Source: Gammaproteobacteria bacterium (GTDB lineage Bacteria; Pseudomonadota; Gammaproteobacteria; RBG-16-57-12). From it: a stretch of DNA of 58,231 nucleotides. The notes under the pieces are model-generated. The model was not told the origin of the DNA. It made no database searches and saw only the letters and a list, made by a program, of their open reading frames with translations. The position numbers were made by a program, and so were the translations under genes. The DNA lies in assembly GCA_021647245.1 (NCBI GenBank), contig JAKIVC010000017.1, forward strand, positions 1 through 58,231, written 5' to 3'. Below are positions 17,767-30,606 of the stretch, piece by piece; the first letter of the stretch is position 1; every line of letters starts with the position of its first letter.

Positions 17767-18729
17767 ATGAAAAGAGTAAGCTGGTTGGCTTTAGCTGTTA
17801 TTGCGCAGGGGGCGGTTTCTGTCGGTTATGCAGATGGGTGGGATCCTGATACGAGAGCGAATAATTTAGTTGCTGAGGGTATTAAGGGAACACGTCATAA
17901 TATGACAATGAGTTATATGGAAGATGACTTCCCTCAGTATGTGGCAACGATGGATATCTATCGTAATAATTACGGAGAGGTCTGCGTCTATTGCCACACG
18001 CCGCACGGGGCTAACACTTCAACAGGTGTGGGTATGCCGCTGTGGAATAGGACAGTTGATGTTAATTTGGAGTTTGTACCATATAATATACCGACTACAC
18101 TGGGGCTCGGTGGTGAGCAGACAGTCACGGCTCCTGGTCCTGCATCATTAACCTGTCTCTCCTGTCATGATGGCGCGACTGCCATCGATTCTATTATCAA
18201 TATGCCGGGCTCTGGTAACTATATGGCAACTCAAGAGGCAACAGTAAATGCTGGGTTTCTGGCGGGGTGGTCTGCGACCACTTTCATGAATCAGAGTTTG
18301 GCTGAATGTGCGAGTCAGTGCCATAACGATGGTCAGCTACCACCGGATTTCCAAAACTTTGTTATTGGCGCGGGTACCAGTGAGCTAGATGGATCGCATG
18401 TTCCCCAGACGGGGAATGTAGTTGATTTGCGAGATGATCACCCGGTTGGCGTATTGTACCCCACTGCACTTACCAGCCAGGCGTGGGTTGATTTCAGGGA
18501 AGTGGACGTTGAAATTCCAGGCCGTTACGCCTTCTTCGATAATGGTAATCGCCGGGCAGATAAAAATGAAATTCGTGTTTATGACTCAGGGGAAGGTTTT
18601 GAGGTGGAGTGCGCCTCCTGCCACGACCCGCATGGCGTACCCGATGCGACTAATATCAACTTTATTCCAAGTTTCCTGCGCGTAGCGAATAATGATAGTA
18701 ATCTCTGTTTGACTTGTCACATTAAATAG
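17767..18729 (+). CDS. secreted pentahaem c-type cytochrome, copy 1
   Basis: A 320-residue exported protein with a signal peptide ending at about residue 23 (VGYADG). Five haem attachment motifs are seen: CVYCH, CLSCH, the unusual CX3CH form CASQCH, CASCH and CLTCH. The CHTPHG and CHDPHG doubled-CXXCH context is typical of periplasmic or outer-membrane electron carriers of the doubled-CXXCH family. The electron donor or acceptor is not deducible. It has the same leader as the second copy (CTTGAGGGA then a short AT stretch before ATG) and a strong terminator behind it. A 100-base block (17839-17938) is identical to the second copy, far above the identity of the rest. Confidence 0.9.
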   Translation: MKRVSWLALAVIAQGAVSVGYADGWDPDTRANNLVAEGIKGTRHNMTMSYMEDDFPQYVATMDIYRNNYGEVCVYCHTPHGANTSTGVGMPLWNRTVDVNLEFVPYNIPTTLGLGGEQTVTAPGPASLTCLSCHDGATAIDSIINMPGSGNYMATQEATVNAGFLAGWSATTFMNQSLAECASQCHNDGQLPPDFQNFVIGAGTSELDGSHVPQTGNVVDLRDDHPVGVLYPTALTSQAWVDFREVDVEIPGRYAFFDNGNRRADKNEIRVYDSGEGFEVECASCHDPHGVPDATNINFIPSFLRVANNDSNLCLTCHIK

Positions 18730-22717: not shown

Positions 22718-23203
22718 TTAAAAAAAGCTGAGCTGCCCTTGCTGTTCAGATCGGTTGTCGGTTTCCATTTTGTCACTCTCTTTGAGCAGGATACCGATAG
22801 TTTTTCCTCTGTGGGCAGCTATTTTAAGCTGTTGCAGCTCTTGTGCGTTATGTTGTTTTGATCTTGCGATGACGGCGCTACAGCGGCCGGTTGAGAGGGC
22901 TTTGCCTAATATTTTGAGATGATTCTCTTGCTCTCTGAGGTGCACATGAAGTAGGCGGTGGGTTGAGGCCGATAGCTCTTGAAGTTTGATGTTGTCGGAG
23001 CGAAGTGAGGCACCTACCCAGGCTATCCAGCGGTCATGTGGGGTAATGACGGTTAATCTCGATAGTATTAAATCCAGTTGTTCGCTGCTGTTGTGGGGGG
23101 TGATTATTTCAATAATTCCTCCCTGTAGCACAATGTCACTCGGGATTAATGGGTTGTTTGAGTCAAGTGTAGAGGGTTGTGTATGGAGTGTTTGAATATT
23201 CAT
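22718..23203 (-). CDS. sulA: SulA-like SOS protein with C-terminal clamp-binding-type motif
   Basis: A 161-residue protein of the SulA/ImuA (RecA-like) family. The segment WIAWVGASLRSDNIKLQELSAS followed by HLKILGKALSTGRCSAVIARS and IAAHRGKTIGILLKES follows the order and spacing of E. coli SulA, which blocks FtsZ polymerisation during the SOS response. The start at 23203 lies one base after the lexA stop, giving the lexA-sulA operon known from pseudomonads, so LexA should control it. The C-terminus is odd: it ends in QLSFF, close to the QL(S/D)LF pentapeptide that binds the DNA polymerase sliding clamp. An ImuA-like role in translesion synthesis is therefore an alternative. Confidence 0.75.
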   Translation of the reverse strand: MNIQTLHTQPSTLDSNNPLIPSDIVLQGGIIEIITPHNSSEQLDLILSRLTVITPHDRWIAWVGASLRSDNIKLQELSASTHRLLHVHLREQENHLKILGKALSTGRCSAVIARSKQHNAQELQQLKIAAHRGKTIGILLKESDKMETDNRSEQQGQLSFF

Positions 23204-23204
23204 T

Positions 23205-23816
23205 TTAGAGTGCTCCGCTGCGAATGATGCCAACACCTAGCCCTTCAATTTCAAAGTTTTGATGACGTAAGTCGACTTCAATCGGGGCGAAGTCGGGGTT
23301 TTCGGCAATCAACGTGACCAGGTGTTCATTTTGATGAAAACGCTTTACCGTCACTTCATCTTCTATGCGGGCGACCACAATGTCGCCGTTTTTAGCCTGC
23401 TTGGTGGCGTGTACTGCGAGCAGGTCATCATCGAGTATGCCGATATCCTTCATGCTCATGCCGCGCACTTTCAGCAGATAGCTGGCGGGGGGGTGAAAGA
23501 GCTCTGCTTCGACGCTGATATACTCTTCTATATGCTGTTCGGCGAGTAATGGGCTGCCTGCGGCAACGCGCCCCACTACCGGTAGCCCTTTTGGTTTGCT
23601 GGAACGGCCAATGATTTTTATGCCTCTGGAGGTGCCCGCCGTCATTTTGATGGCCCCTTTTTTGGCCAGCGCCCGCAGGTGTTGTTCGGCGGCATTGGCC
23701 GATTTAAAGCCCAGTGCCTTGGCAATTTCGCTGCGAGTTGGTGGCATTCCGGTGTTGTTGATGTGCTGGCGAATCAGTTTAAGGACATCTTTTTGTCGCG
23801 GGGTTAGATTTTCCAT
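23205..23816 (-). CDS. lexA: LexA SOS repressor
   Basis: A 203-residue repressor-protease. The winged helix domain (1-70) has the recognition helix SANAAEQHL at 39-47. The cleavage site is Ala86-Gly87 (GRVAAGSP), the nucleophile Ser121 (RGMSMKD) and the general base Lys158 (VTVKRF), so RecA-stimulated self-cleavage should work. Compared with E. coli LexA numbering, the helix has Pro40 to Ala and Glu45 to Gln. The ATG at 23816 is the natural start; the frame is open 11 codons further but that would run into the operator. Two tandem palindromes lie 14-47 bases upstream and are probably the autoregulatory operators. Confidence 0.95.
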
Positions 23817-23829
23817 GGCTCTCACGTAT

Positions 23830-23863
23830 ATGTATGAATGAACATGCATGTAAGTATATACAT
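23830..23863. promoter_or_regulatory. tandem ATGT-N8-ACAT palindromes, probable LexA operators
   Basis: Box 1 at 23830-23845 is ATGT-ATGAATGA-ACAT; box 2 at 23848-23863 is ATGT-AAGTATAT-ACAT. Their centres are 18 bases apart. Position just before lexA and tandem layout match the two autoregulatory boxes of E. coli lexA, but the outer base pair is A-T instead of C-G (CTGT-N8-ACAG). No canonical CTGT-N8-ACAG was found in the 161-base lexA/pseB divergent region. Confidence 0.7.
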
Positions 23864-23965
23864 GTTTGGTTGCTGTGCAACTGTATTTCTTCTCCCTCTG
23901 CTGAGTTAACGCGGTTTGAATCGGTGGGTGCTTGATGATATGTTGCTTGGCATAAGAAAAACTGA

Positions 23966-26123
<2,158 letters not shown>

Positions 26124-26124
<1 letters not shown>

Positions 26125-29655: not shown

Positions 29656-30606
29656 GTGTCTCTCGATGGCAAGCGGGTCTATATTCCGGGCCACACCGGC
29701 ATGGTGGGTTCTGCGCTGGTTGAGCAGTTGGCAAAAAACCGCAATGTGACACTGCTCACAGTGCCACGCGCAGCCCTTGATTTGCGTAATCAGCAGCATG
29801 TGGATGATTTTTTCGCCCGCGAAAAGCCGCAGGTGGTGATTATGGCGGCGGGTGTGGTGGGCGGCATTATCGAAAACAGGGATTACCCCGGAGACTTTAT
29901 CAGTGATAACTTAACCTTGCAGCTCAACCTGATGGTGGCCGCTCGCCGTCATGGTGTGGCGCATTTTATTTTTCTCGCCTCCTCCTGTATGTATCCACAG
30001 CAAACGCACCAGCCAATGGCGGAGTCTCAACTGCTGACGGGGCCTCTGGAGTCGACCAGCCAGGCGTATGCAGTGGCAAAGCTAGCGGGCTTGCAGATGT
30101 GTTTGGCATTTAACCGGCAAGATGGTTGCAACCGTTTTATCCCGCTGATTCCAAATACCATTTATGGCCCCAAGGATAACTTTGACCCCGCCTCAGGGCA
30201 TGTTTTACCGGCTTTAATCAGCCGTTTCATACAGGCGAAACAGGACAAAAAAGAGACCATTACCCTCTGGGGCAGTGGGCGGCCGGTGCGTGAATTTATT
30301 CATGTGGATGATGTGGTGGCGGCGATTGTGTTGATATTAAAACAGCCCCCGGAGATATTGCAGCCGCCCTATAATATTGGCTATGGCGAAGGGGTGAGCA
30401 TCGCCGCTCTGGCCACAAAAATTGCCGCAGTGGTTGGTTTTTCAGGCACTTTGGTGTGGGATAGCTCAAAGCCGGATGGCGCACCGGAAAAGGTGCTGGA
30501 TGGCACCCGCCTACAGCAGTTGGGTTGGCAGCGCCAAATCTCCCTGGAAGAGGGGATTGTGAAGAGTGTTGCGTGGTTTCGTGAACAGCAGTTAATCGCA
30601 GGCTAA
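29656..30606 (+). CDS. GDP-sugar epimerase/reductase of the Fcl/ColC type
   Basis: A 316-residue extended SDR related to GDP-L-fucose synthase (Fcl/WcaG) and GDP-colitose synthase (ColC). Visible are the NADP motif GHTGMVGSALV, FLASSCMYPQ with the catalytic Ser, YAVAKLAGLQMC with Tyr-Lys, and NTIYGPKDNFDP. These enzymes epimerise and reduce a 4-keto-6-deoxy GDP-sugar. The start is GTG at 29656, three bases after the hddA-like stop, with a weak ribosome site. With the ColD-like dehydrase downstream, a 3,6-dideoxy product is more likely than fucose (inference). Confidence 0.8.
   Translation: MSLDGKRVYIPGHTGMVGSALVEQLAKNRNVTLLTVPRAALDLRNQQHVDDFFAREKPQVVIMAAGVVGGIIENRDYPGDFISDNLTLQLNLMVAARRHGVAHFIFLASSCMYPQQTHQPMAESQLLTGPLESTSQAYAVAKLAGLQMCLAFNRQDGCNRFIPLIPNTIYGPKDNFDPASGHVLPALISRFIQAKQDKKETITLWGSGRPVREFIHVDDVVAAIVLILKQPPEILQPPYNIGYGEGVSIAALATKIAAVVGFSGTLVWDSSKPDGAPEKVLDGTRLQQLGWQRQISLEEGIVKSVAWFREQQLIAG

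Follow-up and report, generated by a model that had tools for sequence, protein, structure and literature searches.

Paired ATGT-N8-ACAT boxes, predicted LexA operators, before the lexA gene of a small gammaproteobacterial genus with glutamine at LexA residue 45

The LexA box of beta- and gamma-proteobacteria is the 16-bp palindrome CTGT-N8-ACAG, two copies of which stand in tandem before E. coli lexA, and in the LexA-DNA structure its outermost C is read by Glu45. Changes in the recognition helix can alter the sequence that is read—LexA408, an altered-specificity mutant of the E. coli protein (P40A N41S A42S), reads CCGT. E. coli LexA needs two CTG motifs, and CAG substitutions severely abrogate binding (PMC5999292); Glu45 is one of the five DNA-contacting residues in its helix III (PMC3091678). 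Elsewhere, in the Xanthomonadaceae and the alpha-proteobacteria, lineage-specific LexAs recognise divergent operators (PMC3108266). A search of the literature for ATGT-N8-ACAT, the pattern described below, returned as its sole match LftR of Listeria, an unrelated PadR-like regulator.

The window—the whole stretch of 58,231 nucleotides that we analysed—contains a true, full-length lexA on the minus strand (23208..23816, with an ATG start codon at 23816-23814). Its product scored 249.7 bits in a profile search against TIGR00498 (cut-off 110.95 bits) and matched both the LexA DNA-binding domain (PF01726, LexA_DNA_bind) and the S24 peptidase domain (PF00717, Peptidase_S24) above their curated cut-offs. 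Alignment to E. coli LexA showed an intact peptidase domain that retains the Ala-Gly cleavage site (AAG) and the Ser/Lys dyad (the serine of GMSM and the lysine of VTVKR), along with a recognition helix that reads SANAAEQH as opposed to SPNAAEEH in E. coli; the substitutions P40A and E45Q, which a preliminary description of this DNA had placed in the DNA-reading helix, are thus both real. On the same strand, directly 3' of lexA, lies a gene (22718..23203) resembling sulA and imuA (ImuA 3.2e-14, SulA 5.6e-12, both sub-cutoff), whose product had no Pfam domain match and reached none of the curated cut-offs. The two genes share an orientation and probably form one operon; the arrangement looks like a lexA-sulA unit whose SulA has diverged. 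Divergent from lexA, on the plus strand, 23978-26124 encodes an SDR-type sugar dehydratase and, after it, a DegT-type aminotransferase, a pair that by eye resembles PseB/PseC of nonulosonic acid synthesis.

Directly 5' of lexA are two perfect ATGT-N8-ACAT palindromes, for which we confirm the coordinates and the 18-base spacing given in the preliminary description. Box 1, nearer the gene, occupies 23830..23845 on the minus strand (ATGTTCATTCATACAT on the lexA strand, ATGTATGAATGAACAT on the forward strand), about 14-29 bases 5' of the start codon, and box 2 occupies 23848..23863 on the same strand (ATGTATATACTTACAT, or ATGTAAGTATATACAT on the forward strand). The window holds exactly these two matches, 18 bp apart from start to start, a count that carries little weight because the computed chance expectation is 1.01 (in agreement with the earlier estimate of about one per window) and two or more matches arose in 30 of 100 shuffles. 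For two matches within the 159-bp lexA intergenic region, a first-order Markov model of the same region gives p of about 5e-5. A position weight matrix built from standard E. coli boxes, with the inner 14 bases alone scored, gave 17.6 for box 2 and 13.3 for box 1, and at a threshold of 10 it produced zero matches inside lexA genes. The canonical box had been described as absent, which is so only for the lexA promoter: CTGT-N8-ACAG matches twice in the window, near chance expectation, at 18040-18055 and at 29985-30000. The latter site falls within an ORF resembling NAD-dependent epimerases.

Compared with the beta/gamma-proteobacterial arrangement, the locus has the same tandem pair over the promoter, the same 16-bp palindromic form and the same TGT-N8-ACA core with an AT-rich interior. 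The difference is confined to the ends, as CTG..CAG is absent and all four half-sites carry A/T outermost, not C/G; box 2, for example, differs from CTGTATATACTTACAG before a Pseudoalteromonas lexA (L095) in its two ends alone. Because their position matches that of the boxes in 80 other lexA loci and their interiors are LexA-like, the two palindromes are very probably LexA operators, with a predicted autoregulatory role.

We compared the locus with these 80 named lexA loci, in which the boxes lie at a similar distance from the start codon and mostly in pairs. ATGT..ACAT twice, together with Q45, was found only in the two closest relatives—a Chromatiales MAG (L037, LexA 96% identity) and Gammaproteobacteria MAG MC-02 (L038, 86%)—and the other loci carry CTGT..(A/C)CAG, bar a few single-end variants. 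The genus comprises three sequenced species, all of which keep both boxes, ending ATG..CAT, with all four A-type ends; 12 of 12 half-sites begin with A. Across LexAs that are 86-96% identical, the interior bases of the boxes vary and the A/T ends are constant, and for this small genus of three genomes the boxes with non-canonical ends are probable LexA operators, as predicted from sequence. A putative -10 element, TATACT, lies within box 2 (23853..23858, minus strand) and is conserved in the alignment, with TATAAT in its place in L038; it was assigned by eye because an automatic promoter scan did not reach its threshold at the lexA promoter. The corresponding -35 element, TTGCAC (23875..23880, minus strand), is 16 bp from the -10 and invariant in the three species.

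Our reading of the regulon in this genus covers three promoters. In all three species the box of yebG, a classical SOS gene, is a near-perfect CTGT-N8-ACAG (CTGTATACATATACAG, CTGTATACATATACAG and CTGTATAGATATACAG; consensus CTGTATA[C/G]ATATACAG), and the recA box is GTGT-N8-ACAT in two of them (GTGTATAAATGTACAT in genome G000 and GTGTATAAATATACAT in G001; consensus GTGTATAAAT[G/A]TACAT). At recA of the third species, G002 (L151), the LexA-type box of its relatives is absent and the promoter region has been replaced. That replacement is found again in front of this genome's Y-family polymerase (L157), which suggests a mobile repeat. No recognisable LexA box was found at the recN promoter in the genus, and the search for umuDC, dinB and imuB returned no Y-family polymerase in G001 and a single one in each of the other two genomes, G000 and G002, neither preceded by a clear box. 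A tyrosine recombinase in G000 (contig C20, L327 2618-3667, minus strand), labelled integron-integrase-like by resemblance, carries CTGTATAAATAAACAG at its start. Its promoter side, 272 bp long, recurs in a 97% copy near the start of contig C40 (L034, about 539) of the same genome. On contig C33 of G000 (L326 2326-2438), ATGTATAAATAAACAG and ATGTATAAATAGACAT lie about 97 bp apart, the former before the apparent start of another integrase, with a DarT/macro-domain (DarTG) pair downstream. From the box sequences of lexA, recA, yebG and the recombinase, it follows that A, G and C box ends coexist in one genome.

Across the class, we sampled 126 lexA loci through profile search and promoter retrieval, and a peptide-pattern scan of 369 genomes turned up further Q45 LexAs. 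Spacing between paired boxes was mostly 16-22 bp from start to start in this sample, in line with the 18 in the window. Where residue 45 is acidic, the first base is C in 182 of 192 half-sites and A in 3 (E45, n = 92: 88 C, 1 A, 2 G, 1 T; D45, n = 100: 94 C, 2 A, 3 G, 1 T), as opposed to 18 C, 19 A and 1 G among the 38 half-sites of Q45 proteins. A-type ends occur in three of seven Q45 families versus five of 57 others (Fisher p 0.036), and family-level permutation gave p 0.0039 for A with Q45 (stricter boxes) and p about 0.0001 for G with a residue 45 that is neither acidic nor Gln; since the LexA tree is weakly supported and an independent-pairs test had no power, these values describe a cross-family correlation uncorrected for ancestry. 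On that tree, Q45 changes number seven, the supported branches offer only one independent pair, and Q45 may have a single origin. G ends were present in 10 of 17 families with a non-acidic, non-Gln residue 45 versus 3 of 35 acidic families, and where the residue is Ser, Gly or Thr, G often stands at one or both box ends (L258, L283, L247, L217, L263 and L295).

Glutamine at residue 45 does not bring A with it in every family. Boxes are CTGT..ACAG throughout families f125, f133, f138 and f166, including f138, whose helix has the same eight residues as that of the window LexA. This helix, SANAAEQH, goes with a CTGT-N8-ACAG box, CTGTATAAATATACAG, in genome G140, from a different family than the window genus. 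Each main box of family f144 (SDNAAYQH) has one C end and one A end, family f179 (SANAAEQH) has GTGTATAAATAAACAT, a GTGT..ACAT form, and no recognisable LexA box was found before lexA in family f150 (L193 and L194; G263 and G152), whose operator may differ from the LexA box. Because four of the seven Q45 families with boxes show C alone, Q45 is at most permissive for A and does not require it. As a cause of A ends, P40A was rejected: with an acidic residue 45, A40 proteins still have C at 78 of 82 half-sites, compared with 58 of 58 for P40. We consider this class-wide covariation of residue 45 and the outer base a more interesting lead than the lexA boxes themselves.

The reading that we think likely is that both palindromes are autoregulatory LexA operators, that Q45 relaxes recognition of the outermost base pair, and that lexA has moved to A; here we infer that LexA binds, that its affinity is relaxed and that Gln45 plays a part. 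Bound at operator 2, a LexA dimer would cover the -10 element; another, at operator 1, would cover the stretch from the transcription start to the ribosome binding site, so that uncleaved LexA would silence lexA until RecA-stimulated self-cleavage. At residue 45, an acidic side chain would accept a hydrogen bond donated by the amino group of cytosine, restricting the outermost base to C. Glutamine could accept a hydrogen bond from cytosine or adenine and also donate one to adenine, a behaviour that would fit tolerance of A besides C. Gln45 would probably accept G too. The lexA operators would then have drifted to A or been selected for A, recA would have moved partly (G/A ends), and yebG would have stayed at C. 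Overall, the pattern points to a loosening of recognition, not to a new SOS code.

The preliminary description had instead suggested an operator code co-evolved with Glu45Gln. On this view E45Q, together with P40A, would have driven a complete switch of SOS operators, CTGT giving way to ATGT, and in its favour Q45 and ATGT coincide perfectly in the 80 nearest lexA loci. We judge such a switch very improbable, given the canonical yebG boxes in the same three species, the GTGT-N8-ACAT form of recA where its box is kept, and the identical helix with CTGTATAAATATACAG in G140. Nor do Q45 lineages elsewhere use ATGT as the idea would have it, with the four C-only families (three beyond that identical helix), the mixed f144 and the GTGT-type f179, and P40A appears to be without effect, A40 being common among CTGT-using LexAs. 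Genome-wide, ATGT-N8-ACAT matches 28 times versus 20 for a reversed control pattern, an excess that is not clear, and we dropped the count as a route to an ATGT-N8-ACAT regulon; the TGT​AT-N6-ACA sites listed are mostly within ORFs. Canonical boxes at SOS promoters had been named in advance as counter-evidence, and yebG supplies one, although recA does not. What survives of the co-evolution proposal is that Q45 goes with A ends more than acidic residues do; the switched code does not.

Could the A ends instead be deliberately weak? If low-affinity ATGT boxes served to raise the LexA level, Q45 would be incidental, and the strong box form retained by yebG, which is not autoregulatory, would fit, as would the fact that E. 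coli LexA needs C there to bind strongly (PMC5999292). We regard this as unlikely, since decay would give a mixture of ends and not A at every half-site in three species; moreover, with so few A-ended half-sites in the E45/D45 sample (3/192), C-to-A does not appear to be a usual route to weakening. Least credible is that the boxes arose by chance or belong to another regulator, such as the second LexA-like S24 repressor encoded beside the Y-family polymerase in G000 (C12:35500-37500; L325/L028) and in G002. Chance is opposed by the low p value for two boxes in the lexA intergenic region, and the conservation and placement of the boxes match those of LexA boxes. The second repressor was rejected as their owner because G001, which has the same boxes and zero Y-family polymerases, has a single lexA match.

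The data suggest change through a permissive intermediate, not a clean switch, and the natural covariation of one recognition-helix residue with one operator base offers a testable case of repressor-operator evolution. More tentatively, and with somewhat greater doubt than belief, residue 45 could be a class-wide specificity dial (acidic for C, Gln for C or A, small for C or G); were this true, the A ends of lexA, G/A ends of recA and C ends of yebG would make a graded regulon in the genus. In the class, SOS boxes are taken to end invariably in CTG/CAG; a standard scan for LexA boxes would overlook both lexA and recA in this genus.

Among known altered systems, LexA408 shares with the window LexA the combination of recognition-helix changes and an altered CTGT half-site, but it alters N41 and A42, both unchanged here, and P40A alone accompanies CTGT. 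The motifs of the Xanthomonadaceae and alpha-proteobacterial LexAs differ throughout, whereas the boxes before this lexA differ from the canonical form only at the outermost base pair and, unlike those motifs, share their genome with a canonical box that persists.
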